Shown piece by piece: positions 3,881 to 9,938 of a stretch of 64,000 bases of DNA. The notes under the pieces were generated by a model, which was given only the letters and a program-made list of their open reading frames with translations, made no database searches and was not told the origin of the DNA. Position numbers and translations under genes: made by a program. Source of the stretch: Thermodesulfobacteriota bacterium. Its GTDB lineage: Bacteria; Desulfobacterota; GWC2-55-46. Location: assembly GCA_030583865.1 (NCBI GenBank), contig CP129479.1, positions 632,744 to 696,743 of the forward strand, written 5' to 3'. Position 1 is the first letter of the stretch. Each line of letters begins with the position of its first letter.

Positions 3881-4432
3881 ATGCCGGGCTTCGCAATCGG
3901 GGAATTCTTTTCAATGGACCCGGCCCCGGCGGACAGGCCGTTCCTCGAACAGAAGAGAAAGCCGGGCGATATAAAGAAAGACAGGTACGGCCTCCCGGAC
4001 CCCACTCCCGACGTAATCTCCCTTACGCACCTTCCAAACGACCGATACGGCTTCGTAGACTGGGCCGAGGCCATCTCCTCCGGCATAATCTCGCCGAAGT
4101 CGTCGATAGACGGCTCTCCCGCGAGGCTCGCTCCCGCCGACAGGGAGAGGTTCGACGGCGACGTCCTCTTGAGGTCCAAAAAGGAATTCATGCCGGACGT
4201 GCTATTCCCGCATTCGGCCCACAACGAATGGCTCAAGTGCTCCACCTGCCACCCCCGCATATTCGCGAAGAAGGCCGGCGCGAGCCGCATTACGATGACG
4301 GGGATATGGAAAGGCAGGTTCTGCGGAGTATGCCATGACAAGGTGGCCTTCCCGACCAGGAACTGCTTCAAATGCCATTCGGTCCCAAGAGAGGCCGGGA
4401 AAGCGTTCAAAGGGACCGGGCAGGTGCGCTAA
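3881..4432 (+). CDS. c(7)-type triheme cytochrome domain protein
   Basis: About 183 residues with three haem-binding CxxCH motifs in the C-terminal half: CSTCH, CGVCH and CFKCH. The segment FPHSAHNEWLKCSTCHP followed by GKFCGVCH-like spacing fits the triheme c(7)-type cytochrome domain of deltaproteobacterial periplasmic electron carriers. The ATG at 3881 yields no proper signal peptide. The upstream frame from ATG 3834 reads MLKSSLTTRSSL, and a one-base shift near 3868 would join it to LACMPGFAIG to give a normal export signal. The signal may therefore be frameshifted, either in nature or in the assembly. The stop overlaps the next start (TAATG), so it is translationally linked to the LuxR-type genes. 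Confidence 0.75.
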   Translation: MPGFAIGEFFSMDPAPADRPFLEQKRKPGDIKKDRYGLPDPTPDVISLTHLPNDRYGFVDWAEAISSGIISPKSSIDGSPARLAPADRERFDGDVLLRSKKEFMPDVLFPHSAHNEWLKCSTCHPRIFAKKAGASRITMTGIWKGRFCGVCHDKVAFPTRNCFKCHSVPREAGKAFKGTGQVR

Positions 4433-5016
4433 TGCATCAATATGACTACCTCTCCAAAAGCGAGCTGGTAAAGATACTCGAACTGATCGAGCAGTCGCTG
4501 AAGTGCGGCAGCCCGGACGACGTAAGAGACCTCATCATGTCGGCCCGGCAGCTCTTCGAAGCCGAGTTCGCCGTATGCGGCCTGCTTGAAGCGGGTTTGC
4601 CCCACATCACGGGTTTTGTGAACGGCAATTATCCGGACGAATGGATAAGCAGATACATGGCCGAGGGCCTTCAGAGGCACGACCCGGTCGTAAGGTTCCA
4701 TTCGAGCTACGCGACTACCCAGATCTGGAAGGACGTCTTCAGAAAGTACGGCGACCCCGGGGCAAGGGAGCTTCTGAAGGACGCAAGCGACTACGGCCTG
4801 AAACACGGCATATCGAGCGCGATCTACGTGCCGGAGGCGGACAAGGTCGCGATAGTCACCTTCTCGGACAGGCAAGACAGGTTCAAGGGACGACACAAGA
4901 AGATAATCGACATCCTGAGCGCGCACCTTAACGGTGCGATAGCAAGGTCGGTCCTGAGCCCCGAGACCGGGGCTGGAGCCGGGACCACGGTTCCTCAACT
5001 GCTTCCTGGTATCTGA
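4432..5016 (+). CDS. LuxR-type autoinducer-binding domain protein lacking HTH
   Basis: A 194-residue paralogue of the N-terminal half of the adjacent LuxR protein (LSKSELVKILELIEQSLKC against FSKRELSEILGIIQETLKC). The residues that line the acyl-homoserine lactone pocket in TraR/LuxR proteins are retained: W71, Y75, D84-P85 and W99. The protein ends at the interdomain linker and has no LuxR helix-turn-helix; the next gene starts 15 bases later, so no HTH remnant remains. Natural HTH-less relatives such as TrlR act as dominant-negative partners of TraR, and a similar role here is inference. The start overlaps the cytochrome stop codon. Confidence 0.8.
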   Translation: MHQYDYLSKSELVKILELIEQSLKCGSPDDVRDLIMSARQLFEAEFAVCGLLEAGLPHITGFVNGNYPDEWISRYMAEGLQRHDPVVRFHSSYATTQIWKDVFRKYGDPGARELLKDASDYGLKHGISSAIYVPEADKVAIVTFSDRQDRFKGRHKKIIDILSAHLNGAIARSVLSPETGAGAGTTVPQLLPGI

Positions 5017-5031
5017 CACCTGAAAGGGGGG

Positions 5032-5772
5032 ATGCGGCAGATGTGCTACAAGAACTTTTCAAAAAGGGAATTGTCGGAGATACTCGGGATCATCCAGGAG
5101 ACCCTTAAATGCAAGTCCGAGTCCGACATAGTGTCGCTTACGGGGAAGATAAAGGAACTCGTGTACGCCGACATGAGCGTATGCGCGTTGGGCGAGACTG
5201 CCACGGGCAGCCTGCTCAAGGTGGTGAACCATAACTGGCCGGACGAATGGGCTGGGATTTACACATCCGAGCAGCTCTGCAAGCGCGACCCTGTTTTCCT
5301 TTTCAATATCAGCCACCAGCAGGCCTATACCTGGTCAGAGGCGATGCGCAATTTTCCTGGCAAACCAGGCGAGGACGTAATGAACAAGGCCTCGGAGTTC
5401 AGGCTCAAGTACGGCCTCTCAAGCGGCATAAGCTCGGACGGACCAAAGGGGAGCATATTCTCATTCGCGGGAGACCGCGACAGGTTCACCAGCCACCACC
5501 TGATGATACTCGACATCCTGACGCCGCACCTTCATCAGGCGCTTGTACGGATATGCGGGAGCCGGTTCAAAGCCGATGCGCCTCTTTCGCACAGGGAAAG
5601 GGAGGTGCTGAAATGGGTCAGGGAGGGGAAGACGAACTGGGAAATATCAGTGATACTCAGCATAAGCGAACGCACGGTCAAGTTCCATATCCAGAACATA
5701 GAAAGAAAGCTCAATGCGGTAAACAAGGCGCATGCGATAGCGATTGCGCTCGATAGCGGTTTGCTGGCATAG
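5032..5772 (+). CDS. luxR: LuxR-family quorum-sensing transcriptional regulator
   Basis: A 246-residue two-domain regulator. The N-terminal autoinducer-binding domain keeps the signature residues W73, Y77, D86-P87 and W101. The C-terminal GerE-type helix-turn-helix begins LSHREREVLKWVREGKTNWE and continues ISERTVKFHIQNIERKLN. A strong ribosome site (AAAGGGGGG) precedes the ATG at 5032. It should bind an acyl-homoserine lactone and control promoters bearing lux boxes. It lies directly after the HTH-less paralogue. It converges with luxI, their 3' ends overlapping by 62 bases. Candidate operators are in the luxI-radC gap at 6423-6442 and 6490-6511. Confidence 0.88.
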   Translation: MRQMCYKNFSKRELSEILGIIQETLKCKSESDIVSLTGKIKELVYADMSVCALGETATGSLLKVVNHNWPDEWAGIYTSEQLCKRDPVFLFNISHQQAYTWSEAMRNFPGKPGEDVMNKASEFRLKYGLSSGISSDGPKGSIFSFAGDRDRFTSHHLMILDILTPHLHQALVRICGSRFKADAPLSHREREVLKWVREGKTNWEISVILSISERTVKFHIQNIERKLNAVNKAHAIAIALDSGLLA

Positions 5773-6388
5773 AGATTACGGACATCCATTCATAATAGTC
5801 AGGCCTCCTGGCCGAGGCCTCCTTTTCGAACCTGCGCCAGTCCAGCATGCACACGGCGGCCTTCACGCCGTCGGGCATGGTTTTGAAATCCCCTACGGCT
5901 TCCACCGGCAGGCACCCGAGCCTCAGGATCCTATAGCACCTGTTGTCTACGACCATAGCCGAATACCTTACGCCGTTCATGATGTTCCAGTGATACAGGC
6001 CCTTGTAGAGAAGGAGGGTCATGTTATGGCCGCCCTTGTTCGAGCGGAACTCCTTCCTCACGCATAGTCTCGTTATCTCGGCGACATCAGGCGAGCGCTC
6101 TATCGTTTTGCCGTTTGGCAGAAGGGCGGCGAACTCCCTGTCTATCATGAACGGATTGGGCGGAAGTATCATCCGGAGGCTCCCGGCCAGGGTCATGTCT
6201 TCCCTGAAAACTCCGATCGAGTATGAGAACGCGTCATAGGGGTCCCTCTCCAGGCCGTCCGTGGCCTCAGGCACCCATTTGAGCTCCTCCGCGAAGACCT
6301 CGTGGCGGAGCTTAAGCGCCGCCTCGAACTCCTCCGGAGCTGAAATGGTCTTTATTATGAACTCGTCTTCCTCGAATATCAGTTCCAT
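5711..6388 (-). CDS. luxI: LuxI-type acyl-homoserine lactone synthase
   Basis: A 225-residue GNAT-fold autoinducer synthase. The residues invariant in LuxI proteins are present with near-canonical spacing: R28, F32, W38, D49, D52, R72, E104 and R107 (LRHEVFAEELKWVP, ERDPYD, GSLRM, AEITRL). The family makes acyl-homoserine lactones from S-adenosylmethionine and acyl-ACP. The last ~20 residues are encoded opposite the HTH-coding end of luxR, and they fit the family poorly. AAAAAGGGGG lies immediately before the ATG. An exosortase-associated acyltransferase of the same fold is possible, but the paired LuxR genes favour LuxI. Confidence 0.82.
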   Translation of the reverse strand: MELIFEEDEFIIKTISAPEEFEAALKLRHEVFAEELKWVPEATDGLERDPYDAFSYSIGVFREDMTLAGSLRMILPPNPFMIDREFAALLPNGKTIERSPDVAEITRLCVRKEFRSNKGGHNMTLLLYKGLYHWNIMNGVRYSAMVVDNRCYRILRLGCLPVEAVGDFKTMPDGVKAAVCMLDWRRFEKEASARRPDYYEWMSVISMPANRYRAQSLSHAPCLPH

Positions 6389-6422: not shown

Positions 6423-6442
6423 AACTGTCAGGTATTGCAGTT
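6423..6442. promoter_or_regulatory. Candidate lux box 1
   Basis: The 20-base sequence AACTG-N10-CAGTT has the CTG-N10-CAG core of LuxR-type operators. Its centre is about 44 bases before the luxI start codon. Only the five-base arms are symmetric, so the match is modest. Confidence 0.4.
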
Positions 6443-6464: not shown

Positions 6465-6537
6465 AAAATAAAAAGTTTAATTTCGTGGACCCCTGTACCA
6501 AAGTGCAGGGGGACCTGGCGGGTAAATATAGTATAAT
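6465..6537. promoter_or_regulatory. Divergent luxI/radC promoter region with strong lux-box-like palindrome
   Basis: The palindrome CCCCTGTAC-CAAA-GTGCAGGGG occupies 6490-6511, with nine-base arms, one mismatch and a CTG-N10-CAG core. A -10 match, TATAAT, lies at 6532-6537 on the plus strand, putting the palindrome centre near -43 of a start site around 6544. That is the spacing of the classical lux box. On the minus strand TATTTT (6470-6465) gives a similar distance toward luxI. No good -35 hexamer is present on the plus strand, which suits an activator-dependent promoter. Function is inferred. Confidence 0.55.
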
Positions 6538-6612: not shown

Positions 6613-7326
6613 ATGGACGCTGATTACAGGAGGTGCCGTGAGACCGCTTTCAAAGCGCTCGTCGGTCCTTACGGGCTCGCGGAGTTCGGCAGGGAGCGCC
6701 TTCTGGAGCTCATGGTATCGTACGCCGCGCCCAGGAAAGACGCGCGGGCCGTCACCGACAGGCTCCTCAGCAGGTTCAGGGGCTTAAGGGGCGTGCTCGA
6801 CGCCTCCCCGGAAGAGCTTGAGGCCGAGGGCTCGCTGGGCAACGACGGCATAGTGCTCGTAAAGCTCTTCAAGGAGATGGCTGGCGCCTACCTAAAGGAG
6901 CGGACGATCGGGCAGGAAGCCGAGGCCGGCATGGCCGACCTCCTCGACTACCTTTGCCTTACTCTCTCCGGCGAAAGGGTCGAGAAGTTCCTCGCGGTAT
7001 ACATGGGGTTCAGGAAAGAGATAATCTCCATAGACGTTCTGCACGAGGGCACCATAAACCAGACCGTCGTGTATCCCAGGAAGGCCATTGAGATGGCCTT
7101 CAGGCACAACGCCCGGTCGGTCATCTTCGTCCATAACCACCCGAGCGGCGACCCTACGCCGTCGAGCCAGGACAGGCAGCTTACACGGGTCCTGGACAGG
7201 GCCGCGGCCGCGGTCGACATACTTGTTCTTGACCACCTGATAATCGGCAGGGACAGAAACTTCAGCGCCAGGGAGAACGGCTGGTCGATGGGGCTTCCCT
7301 TCAACTGCATCGCCGCAAGCCCCTGA
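6613..7326 (+). CDS. radC: RadC-family JAMM/MPN-domain protein
   Basis: A 237-residue protein of the RadC (DUF2466) family. A helix-hairpin-helix-like N-terminal region (LLSRFRGLRGVLDASPEELE) precedes the JAMM-type metal site HNHPSGDPTPSSQD near residues 177-190. The molecular role of RadC is unsettled; the name comes from a DNA-repair locus later assigned elsewhere. AAAGGAG six bases before the ATG at 6613 fixes the start over an upstream TTG. Its upstream region carries the lux-box-like palindrome, so it may be a quorum-sensing target. A family B repeat begins at the stop codon. Confidence 0.88.
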   Translation: MDADYRRCRETAFKALVGPYGLAEFGRERLLELMVSYAAPRKDARAVTDRLLSRFRGLRGVLDASPEELEAEGSLGNDGIVLVKLFKEMAGAYLKERTIGQEAEAGMADLLDYLCLTLSGERVEKFLAVYMGFRKEIISIDVLHEGTINQTVVYPRKAIEMAFRHNARSVIFVHNHPSGDPTPSSQDRQLTRVLDRAAAAVDILVLDHLIIGRDRNFSARENGWSMGLPFNCIAASP

Positions 7327-7470: not shown

Positions 7471-7699
7471 TTAAGGAAGGTCTGATTAATTCGCAAACGC
7501 TGTCATTCTGAGCGAAGCGAAGAATCTCGTATTGGGAAATTCGGCAAGTTATGATTCTTATCTCGCCCGTCCTGGGGGCTCGACCCTCGGGCTGCCTCGC
7601 CAAGAGGCTCGGCATTCAATTTTTGCTGTCCTGCAAAAATCGTCGGTCGCTTACGCTCCCTCAGAATGACAAAAAAAGGAATTATCAGATCTTCCTTAA
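7471..7699. repeat. Family D inverted-repeat element with nested palindrome
   Basis: The ends are inverted repeats of about 20 bases, TTAAGGAAGGTCTGATTAAT on the left and ATTATCAGATCTTCCTTAA on the right, with one mismatch and one indel. Inside is a second inverted pair, GTCATTCTGAG (about 7501) and CTCAGAATGAC (about 7660). The motif GTCATTCTGAGCGAAGCGAA resembles a repeat widespread in bacterial genomes. No gene is inside. It looks like a MITE-like non-autonomous element. One copy was seen in this window. Confidence 0.65.
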
Positions 7700-7727
7700 C
7701 TTGGTGCTCTTAAGAGCCGGCGCGTGT

Positions 7728-9938
7728 TCAACCCGACCTCTTAGAGCGTTCGAGCGCCTCTAAAACGGCCTTCAGAAGGCTTCCTACAGAATAGGGCTTG
7801 GGCAAAAAACTATAGCCTTTTTCCTTGAGGAGAGGCCTCGATGTCTCCTCGGCGTAGCCGCTGGTTATTACCACCGCCATGCCCGGCTTTTTCGTAAGGA
7901 CCTCCTCTGCGAGGTTGAAACCGCTCTTGTCCTTGAGGACCAGGTCCGAAAAAAGGACCTTGAGGTCCGGTTCCCTCTGGAAAGCCTCCATCGCCTCTTT
8001 CGCGTTCCCGGCCTCGACGACCCTGAAACCGTTATTCGCAAGCGCGGCCTTCGTGAACTCCCTTACCGGCAGGTCGTCCTCGACGAGCAGCACCTTTTCC
8101 CCTCCGCCTTTCAAGGGCTTCGCCTCGCGCGCCTCCTCCCCTTCGCGCCGCCTGAGGACAGCCGGGAAATAGATCTTGAATATGGTGCCCCTGCCCGGTT
8201 CGCTCTTGACCGATATCCACCCCCGGTGCTGTTTTATTATGCTGTAGACTATGGAGAGCCCGAACCCCGTCCCCTTGCCCGCCTCCTTGGTTGTAAAGAA
8301 AGGCTCGAATATCCTCGGGAGGAACTCCTTTTCTATGCCGATTCCCGTGTCGGCCACGGTAAGGCAGACCGCCTCTCCGGGGCGGGCGTCCGGTACGGAT
8401 TTGGCCCGGCGCTCGTCGATTACGATGTTTCCCGTTTTTATCGAGAGCGTGCCGCCCTGGGGCATGGCGTCCTTAGCGTTCAGGGCGAGGTTCATGATGA
8501 CCTGCTCGATATTGCTCTCGTCGGCCTCTATGGTCCAGAGGTCCGGGGCCAGGTCGGTCGAGATGGTGATGTCCTCCCCGATTATGTGGGTGATCATGAC
8601 CAGGAGCTCCTCGACGAGCTTGTTCACGTTGAGCGGCACGAGCTCGAAGGGCTGGCCGCGGCTGAAGAGGAGGAGCTGCCTCGTAAGCTTGGAGGCGAGC
8701 ATCACGGAGTTGATTATCCCGTCCACGCGCGGGTACGAAGGATCGGACTTCTCCATTTCCTCTAGGGCCAGCTCGGCATTTCCCCTTATAGCCGTGAGGA
8801 TGTTGTTGAAGTCGTGTGATATGCCTCCCGCGAACCTCCCTATGGCCTCCATTTTCTGCGACTGGCTCAGGCGGGCCTGTATGAGCTCCCTTTCACGCTC
8901 GGCGCGCTTCCTTTCGGTTATGTCGCGGACCATGGCCGTGAAATGGAGCACGCCGCCGAGGGTGAAGTTATTAAGGGCGAGCTCCAGTGGGAACAGCTCT
9001 CCGTTCTTTCTTACGCCCTCGTATTCGAGAATCCTGCCCTGTACCTTGCTCTCCCCGGTCTTCAAAAACGTTTCAAGCCCGACCTTGTGGGCCTTTTTGT
9101 ACTTGTCGGGAACGATTACCGAGACGCCCTGCCCGACGAGCTCTTCCCTGGGATATCCGAATATCCGGGCGGCGCTCTCGTTGCAGTCGATTATCCTGTC
9201 TTTTGCGTCGGCAATGATAATGCCGTCGAAGGCGGTATTGTGGACTAGCCGGTACCTTGTCTCGCTCTCCTTCAAGGCCATCTCGGTCTTTTTCCTCTCG
9301 GTTATGTCCTCGCCGGAGCTCAGTATGCCTGTTACGGTCCCGTTCTCCGCGAGCACGGCATTGTGCCAGAGGACGTCCCTTTCCTCGCCGTTTCTCGTTA
9401 ATACCGGGTTTTCGAAGTAGCCCTCGGCCTCCCTGCCGCCTGAGAGAAGCCTGTCGAACTCGAACCGGACCTCTTTCCTGACCCTCGCCGGCACGAAGTT
9501 CCCGACCCAGTCCCTGCCGAGGACCTCTTCCTCCGCGTACCCGAGCGTCTGGTAGGCGTTCCTGTTTATGAGGCTCACCTTCCCGTCCCGGTCAAGGACG
9601 ACCACCATCACCCCGGCCACTTCGAGGTACTTCTGGAACCGGTCCCGTTCCCTCGAAGCCGCCCTCTCGGCCTCCTCGCGCTTTTCCGCCAGCGCAATGA
9701 GAGGCCTGAATATTAAAAAATAAAGGATGGGGGAGATGATGAGCACAAGGAGCGGGGCGTCTATGAAAATGGCATGGAGGGGCTCCAGAAAGTCACTGTA
9801 AAAATAGAGGAGCAGCATTATGAGGATCTCGACGAAAAAGACCGACAGGACAAGGATCAATATTATCTTTATTGGCGAATAGGTCCTGGCTTCCGTTTTC
9901 TGCTCCGGCTTGCCCTGGCTTGAGGTCTTCTCTTCCAT
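7728..9938 (-). CDS. Membrane-bound PAS hybrid histidine kinase
   Basis: A 736-residue sensor kinase. Two hydrophobic segments (about residues 22-45 and 58-78) anchor it. Two PAS domains follow (about 100-225 and 230-350). Next come a HisKA domain with phospho-acceptor H375 in GGISHDFNNIL, a HATPase domain (NLALNAKDAMPQGG, DTGIGIEKEFLPRIFEPFFTTK) and a C-terminal receiver domain with the acceptor Asp near residue 663 (LFSDLVLKD). The ATG at 9938 is chosen because AGGAAAAGGAAA precedes it and the upstream extension is low-complexity and basic. No partner regulator adjoins it, so the output and signal are unknown. Confidence 0.88.
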   Translation of the reverse strand: MEEKTSSQGKPEQKTEARTYSPIKIILILVLSVFFVEILIMLLLYFYSDFLEPLHAIFIDAPLLVLIISPILYFLIFRPLIALAEKREEAERAASRERDRFQKYLEVAGVMVVVLDRDGKVSLINRNAYQTLGYAEEEVLGRDWVGNFVPARVRKEVRFEFDRLLSGGREAEGYFENPVLTRNGEERDVLWHNAVLAENGTVTGILSSGEDITERKKTEMALKESETRYRLVHNTAFDGIIIADAKDRIIDCNESAARIFGYPREELVGQGVSVIVPDKYKKAHKVGLETFLKTGESKVQGRILEYEGVRKNGELFPLELALNNFTLGGVLHFTAMVRDITERKRAERERELIQARLSQSQKMEAIGRFAGGISHDFNNILTAIRGNAELALEEMEKSDPSYPRVDGIINSVMLASKLTRQLLLFSRGQPFELVPLNVNKLVEELLVMITHIIGEDITISTDLAPDLWTIEADESNIEQVIMNLALNAKDAMPQGGTLSIKTGNIVIDERRAKSVPDARPGEAVCLTVADTGIGIEKEFLPRIFEPFFTTKEAGKGTGFGLSIVYSIIKQHRGWISVKSEPGRGTIFKIYFPAVLRRREGEEAREAKPLKGGGEKVLLVEDDLPVREFTKAALANNGFRVVEAGNAKEAMEAFQREPDLKVLFSDLVLKDKSGFNLAEEVLTKKPGMAVVITSGYAEETSRPLLKEKGYSFLPKPYSVGSLLKAVLEALERSKRSG

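Follow-up and report, generated by a model that had tools for sequence, protein, structure and literature searches.

An HTH-less autoinducer-binding-domain protein encoded beside luxR and luxI in a hypervariable quorum-sensing locus of Thermodesulfobacteriota

Genes at the Locus

The DNA analyzed here is a window of 64,000 nucleotides from the single 2.75 Mb contig of a Thermodesulfobacteriota bacterium (GCA_030583865.1, CP129479.1; genome G000 in our set), and all locus positions are those of the window. A triheme c7-type cytochrome gene (3881..4432, + strand; TIGR04257, 3.3e-17) is followed by a gene, here called short, that encodes a 194 aa HTH-less protein with an autoinducer-binding domain (4432..5016, + strand; Pfam Autoind_bind). 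The ATG of short at 4432 overlaps the stop codon of the cytochrome gene (TAATG), its own stop codon ends at 5016, and 15 bp separate it from the start of luxR. The luxR gene (5032..5772, + strand) encodes a full-length LuxR-type regulator of 246 aa with a GerE (8.6e-23) and an Autoind_bind (5.6e-16) match, and its AF2 model covers both domains. Convergent with luxR, and overlapping its 3′ end by 62 bp, is luxI (5711..6388, − strand), which encodes a LuxI-type acyl-homoserine-lactone synthase that passes the cut-off of Pfam Autoind_synth (PF00765, 2.7e-18). The NCBIfam TraI models match this protein at about 1e-20, under their cut-offs. LuxI also matches LasI (6.7e-10), and the two proteins align at the conserved R, F, W, D, D, R, E, R positions. 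The right flank is radC (JAB domain, 6613..7326, + strand; PF04002, 1.6e-35), divergent from luxI. Linkage of luxI and luxR, together with a lux-box-like site before luxI, gives the layout of a putatively complete LuxI/LuxR circuit. The original prediction had recognized the pair of short and LuxR and had overlooked luxI, the two lux-box-like sites and the hypervariability described below.

The genome contains exactly two Autoind_bind proteins, the short protein and LuxR, and LuxI is its only strong PF00765 match. A third Autoind_bind candidate (G000:C1:622851-623003) was rejected, being a weak match inside a GGDEF/EAL-type sensor protein that is no LuxR. Beyond radC, at about 7480-7700, lies an intergenic CTGTCATTCTGAGCGAAGCGAAGAATCTC-like element that resembles a dispersed repeat, and its neighborhood aligns to two separate places in the corresponding locus of the relative G005.

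A Conserved Autoinducer Pocket and No DNA-Binding Half

Autoind_bind is the sole Pfam domain of the short protein (residues 28-167; 1.3e-19, 70.6 bits against a cut-off of 23), and GerE or any other HTH domain gave no Pfam match. This bears out the claim that an HTH-less LuxR paralogue stands before a full-length LuxR, since the protein downstream carries both domains. The lactone-pocket residues expected from the first reading, W71, Y75, D84-P85 and W99, were all found, as was G126, and each is invariant in 22/22 aligned short proteins. They correspond to W57, Y61, D70, P71, W85 and G113 of TraR, with G126 of the short protein at the place of TraR G113. Across the short proteins of 22 genomes and three families, 12 columns are invariant.

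The AF2 model of the short protein (pLDDT 90.7, pTM 0.86) has the alpha-beta-alpha fold of a ligand-binding domain, as predicted by AF2 together with Foldseek. The top Foldseek match is the ligand-binding domain of CviR with C6-HSL (3qp1, E 5e-10), and the target-normalized TM score against this AHL-bound domain is 0.81. The tail (about residues 178-194) is of low confidence or disordered in the model and is unconserved. Neither the alignment of the 22 proteins nor the model reveals an HTH remnant at the C-terminus, in keeping with the earlier description of a protein that ends at the interdomain linker. With no GerE domain and a variable tail, the short protein is, by its sequence, outside the LuxR-type transcription factor family. 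Its C-terminal helix is without the P and the second H that are present in nearly all full copies, so its dimer surface may differ from that of full LuxR.

Between close pairs of genomes the dN/dS of short is 0.17-0.35. The reading as a pseudogene was rejected on these values and on the invariant residues. The short protein is probably a maintained AHL-receptor domain with predicted AHL binding and no DNA-binding half.

Distribution in Relatives

Using the Pfam model together with the sequences of the short protein and LuxI, we searched 59 related genomes and then read the loci. The short gene is present in 22 genomes including the source, in its own family and two sister families of the same order, and one further family has a short-like fragment only. 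The proteins are 173-201 aa long, save one copy cut by a contig edge, and HTH is absent in every full-length short protein of the 22 genomes. The usual gene order is short, luxR and convergent luxI, placed between DUF362/pilB/cytochrome and radC. A survey of synteny in relatives had been proposed as a check, and in it short recurs beside luxR in 22 genomes, far above chance. When the sample was widened to 395 genomes from the phylum, few Autoind_bind proteins were found; those of other classes are frames of about 245-281 aa or weak matches below the cut-off.

Within the source family, short and luxI co-occur at the locus in 20 genomes (in one of them, G001, luxI is broken), and in four others (G003, G021, G026 and G029) luxR stands at the locus with neither short nor luxI. 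A naive count of short against luxI, 20/0 vs 0/4, has a chance of 1 in 10,626, although it may reflect perhaps two independent events. The two presumed events are that of G003 and that of the group of G021, G026 and G029, whose genus-mate G028 keeps both short and luxI. In family f11, luxI and luxR are at the locus of G054 with short missing, and G437 and G438 have luxI and only one Autoind_bind protein each. The dependence runs in one direction: short accompanies luxI, and luxI may occur without short. The circuit can run without short, because these three genomes have luxI with no short partner.

Two loci depart from the usual pattern in other ways. In G001 (L095, about 8731-9681) short is intact, while the luxR frame shifts in the part that encodes the HTH and luxI is disrupted by stop codons and changes of frame; the breakage of luxR and luxI is real decay or an assembly error. 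In G016 (L105) and G018 (L107) short and luxI have two full-length LuxR genes between them, so that three receptor genes stand side by side, an arrangement that recalls cerN-cerM-cerR.

The original prediction had treated co-translation with the cytochrome as an unusual trait. The cytochrome and short are separable across loci: the cytochrome is retained in the four family genomes that have neither short nor luxI, and it was undetected at the locus in G008, G011, G012 and G039, which have short. Between near relatives the cytochrome is 87-92% identical where short, luxR and luxI are 41-63% identical, so it is stable across allele changes. A functional link between cytochrome and short is thus unsupported. 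As read from these comparisons, the link is positional, and the meaningful partners of short are luxR and convergent luxI.

A Hypervariable Block

The genes short, luxR and luxI form a hypervariable quorum-sensing cassette (4432..6388), delimited by a DNA identity profile and by dS; the cytochrome lies outside it. Compared with G001, the DNA is for the most part 89-97% identical as far as the cytochrome and from about 6400 onward, and it is 54-61% identical over most of 4432-6200. The breaks fall at the junction of cytochrome and short and near the start of luxI. The profile was made with G004 excluded, as its alignment spans a contig edge. Amino acid identities to G001 are 92, 95 and 85% for the cytochrome, PilB and RadC and 47, 49 and 50% for the short protein, LuxR and LuxI. 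The corresponding values against G005 are 91, 94 and 91% and 63, 45 and 48%, a comparison that uses good assemblies (1 contig for G000 and about 30 for G005). Against G005, dS is 1.2-1.5 within the block and 0.34-0.56 in the flanking genes. Because dS in the block far exceeds that of the flanks, fast evolution alone does not account for the difference, and the block was replaced.

A second luxR/luxI class is found in G004, G005, G010, G025 and G027. Its members form one clade in the LuxI tree (100/99), though they span two genera, and the radC tree rejects this clade (AU p 2.6e-13). The first class is also present in both genera. The pattern of classes has two possible sources, an exchange among lineages and a polymorphism of old date.

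Pocket Covariation with the Synthase

The genomes G013 and G020 share a background that is about 97% identical, with three divergent islands. These islands cover aa 70-122 of the short protein (70-76% DNA identity), aa 55-160 of LuxR (58-68% over most of that length) and aa 20-200 of LuxI (52-78%), and the luxR HTH, the N-termini and the remainder of short are about 90-100% identical. In the short protein 18/26 differences fall in aa 70-122 (Fisher 1.8e-6, for a region picked after viewing the profile), and in LuxR 45/51 fall in aa 57-160. Both are metagenome-type assemblies, for which a chimera is possible in principle; it is unlikely here because three intact genes differ in corresponding functional segments.

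Over 14 genomes, LuxI distance strongly follows that of the LuxR ligand-binding domain (partial r 0.85 given radC). With radC distance allowed for, it also weakly follows the pocket region of the short protein (partial r 0.31, p 0.011), and it is uncorrelated with the N-terminus of the short protein in the same genomes (r 0.07, p 0.22). Because G013 and G020 differ in both pockets and in LuxI, the comparison suggests that one signal is sensed by both the short protein and LuxR.

Origin of the Short Lineage

The short protein is 38% identical to the neighboring full LuxR. In a tree of N-terminal domains the short orthologues are grouped apart from all full-length copies, with one label change, and the branch that separates them has modest support (61/64). 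The tree omits G051, whose short-like protein is no more than a fragment at the start of a contig. The grouping suggests that short is an old paralogue lineage and no recent truncation of its neighbor, at the 61/64 support of the separating branch. The earlier idea of a tandem duplicate of the neighbor that recently lost its HTH does not agree with the tree group of its own and the identity of only 38%. Recent truncation of the adjacent luxR was likewise rejected, as the short proteins group separately and none of them has the C-terminal half.

lux-Box-Like Sites and Candidate Targets

A proximal lux-box-like site, AACTG-N10-CAGTT (6423..6442), precedes the start of luxI by 52/53 or 68/69 bp, depending on the genome. 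It is found in most genomes with luxI, in a tally for which the AACTG...CAGTT ends were a selection criterion and the fixed position was not, and it is the only exact match within its own genome. A distal site, CCCTGTACCAAAGTGCAGGG (6491..6510), lies between luxI and the divergent radC, about 100 bp before radC. A CTGTAC-N4-GTACAG-like distal site occurs in most genomes, usually spaced 60 or 68 bp from the proximal one, and an AT-rich stretch between the two could be a putative luxI -10 element. In G003, G021, G026 and G029 (L121, L122, L123 and L125) the distal site is kept before radC and the proximal site is gone together with luxI and short. Because the distal box persists and the proximal one vanishes without short and luxI, the distal candidate box may serve radC or both directions, and the proximal candidate box would belong to luxI. 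On this basis radC may be a LuxR target via the distal candidate box.

Genome-wide, the general pattern CTG-N10-CAG is uninformative, with 560 sites vs 600 for the reversed control. Further CTGTAC-N4-GTACAG sites exist in G000. One of them, at G000:C1:2495171 (L187 4172), is an intergenic perfect CTGTACCCAAGTACAG palindrome that is identical in G005 (L192) and precedes a small SemiSWEET/PQ-loop-like ORF and an AcpS-like gene. This palindrome is a possible second target. A comparison of CTGTAC-N4-GTACAG sites between G000 and G005 established no shared regulon.

Discussion

HTH-less LuxR homologs have been described in a few systems. TrlR and TraR form inactive dimers (PMC11655674, PMC13043044). 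CerN of Cereibacter sphaeroides is an Autoind_bind protein without HTH, with a locus number consecutive with those of the full LuxR genes cerM and cerR and the LuxI gene cerI; CerM binds DNA without AHL, and AHL-bound CerN binds CerM and releases it from DNA (PMC11655674). The short protein has the layout of TrlR and CerN, an Autoind_bind domain without HTH encoded beside a full LuxR. Its likeness to CerN/CerM is one of architecture and neighborhood, an HTH-less protein near luxR and luxI that shares 31% identity (CerN) or 38% identity (short) with its partner. The Cereibacter locus differs in having two full LuxR genes, where the short locus usually has one, with a convergent luxI and three genes that co-vary among near relatives. 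With TrlR/TraR of Agrobacterium octopine-type Ti plasmids, the short protein shares the missing HTH and the retained AHL-binding and dimerization domain. TrlR is a recent truncation, 88% identical to TraR (PMC13043044, PMC11655674), whereas the short lineage appears old, is under purifying selection and is chromosomal, beside luxR and luxI. By analogy, a TrlR-like action of the short protein is plausible.

These comparisons and the data above lead to a mechanism to which we give an even chance of being right: the short protein would be a co-translated AHL-binding partner that forms DNA-binding-defective heterodimers with LuxR and damps the circuit, in a cassette that changes together. The AHL produced by LuxI would be bound by both receptors. 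Translated just ahead of full LuxR, the short protein would pair with it through the retained dimer surface of the ligand-binding domain, and the heterodimers, with a single HTH, would bind lux boxes poorly. This would raise the signal threshold or damp the luxI autoinduction loop; the inhibitory sign is taken from the analogy with TrlR and CerN. The genes short, luxR and luxI would move and vary as one unit, a polymorphic cassette for signal specificity. The evidence comes from sequence and consists of the domains, the pocket, purifying selection, synteny, co-absence with luxI, the hypervariable block and the pocket change in one pair. Counting against the mechanism, the C-terminal helix of the short protein departs from that of nearly all full copies, three f11 genomes have luxI with no short partner, the covariation of LuxI with short is weak beside that of LuxI with luxR, and G000 and G005 are a counter-case (short 63%, luxR 45%, LuxI 48%) in which the short and luxR alleles can uncouple.

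LuxR ligand-binding domains usually dimerize. This habit speaks against a ligand sponge, in which the short protein as homodimer or monomer would buffer free AHL with no LuxR contact. A sponge would explain the fully conserved pocket, and co-absence with luxI and parallel pocket change require ligand binding only; yet intracellular buffering of a freely diffusing signal demands high protein levels, and a gene that adjoins and precedes luxR favors 1:1 assembly, which leaves this explanation improbable. A partner of positive sign, one that stabilizes LuxR, helps it to fold, or joins it in an asymmetric but functional dimer that chooses its sites differently, we also consider unlikely: most systems manage with LuxR homodimers, luxR persists without short in four genomes of the family, and f11 has luxI-luxR without short. 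It does have a precedent in the cerN deletion, which lowers CerM protein (PMC11655674), and the distal box outlasts short and luxI where the proximal one does not, so the dissimilar boxes may suit different complexes.

The short protein might instead respond to some other ligand, such as an AHL of exogenous origin or a metabolite of the cell itself, and couple it to the LuxR circuit. Its mere 38% identity to full LuxR and the weakness with which its divergence follows LuxI over the whole set would fit such a role. Both its absence together with luxI and the parallel change of its pocket and LuxI in G013/G020 speak against it, and we regard it as quite unlikely. That short is a decaying duplicate without function is hardly credible. 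It is true that the HTH is gone, that the tail is unconserved and that in several pairs dN/dS of short is roughly double the value of full luxR, but this dN/dS is well below 1, and short is one old lineage that 22 genomes from three families carry intact, with its 12 invariant columns.

The heterodimer mechanism has parts that are already known and one that is new. ABD-only truncated LuxR proteins have been surveyed and often adjoin full LuxR genes; as far as the available part of that survey goes, ligand sequestering or LuxR binding was proposed, function and evolution were left open, and a polymorphic three-gene cassette is undescribed there (PMC4338825). Residues around the ligand sites of LuxI and LuxR covary and set signal selectivity (PMC8328516); in one pair of the present set the HTH-less receptor joins them as a third protein with a changed pocket region. 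Our literature search, which covered mostly sources other than subscription journals, found no report of a polymorphic luxR-luxI cassette whose third member is an HTH-less receptor. What is already known is the HTH-less LuxR beside LuxR and the covariation of synthase and receptor, and what is new is the polymorphic three-gene cassette. The fuller proposal, of a three-gene AHL pherotype cassette kept polymorphic by lineage exchange, in which both pockets switch with the synthase and the inhibitory or modulating receptor is obligate and specificity-matched, is tentative and in our judgment falls somewhat short of even.

The short protein looks like a built-in modulator of a signaling system with a swappable signal type. 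HTH-less LuxR proteins are commonly regarded as oddities of single plasmids or strains. The one described here is a standard component of an AHL system and is maintained in a whole family and in two sister families. Its loci offer a natural set of matched synthase, receptor and decoy alleles against nearly identical backgrounds. Such a set makes it possible to test what purpose HTH-less receptors serve and by what route AHL specificity diversifies without breakage of the circuit.
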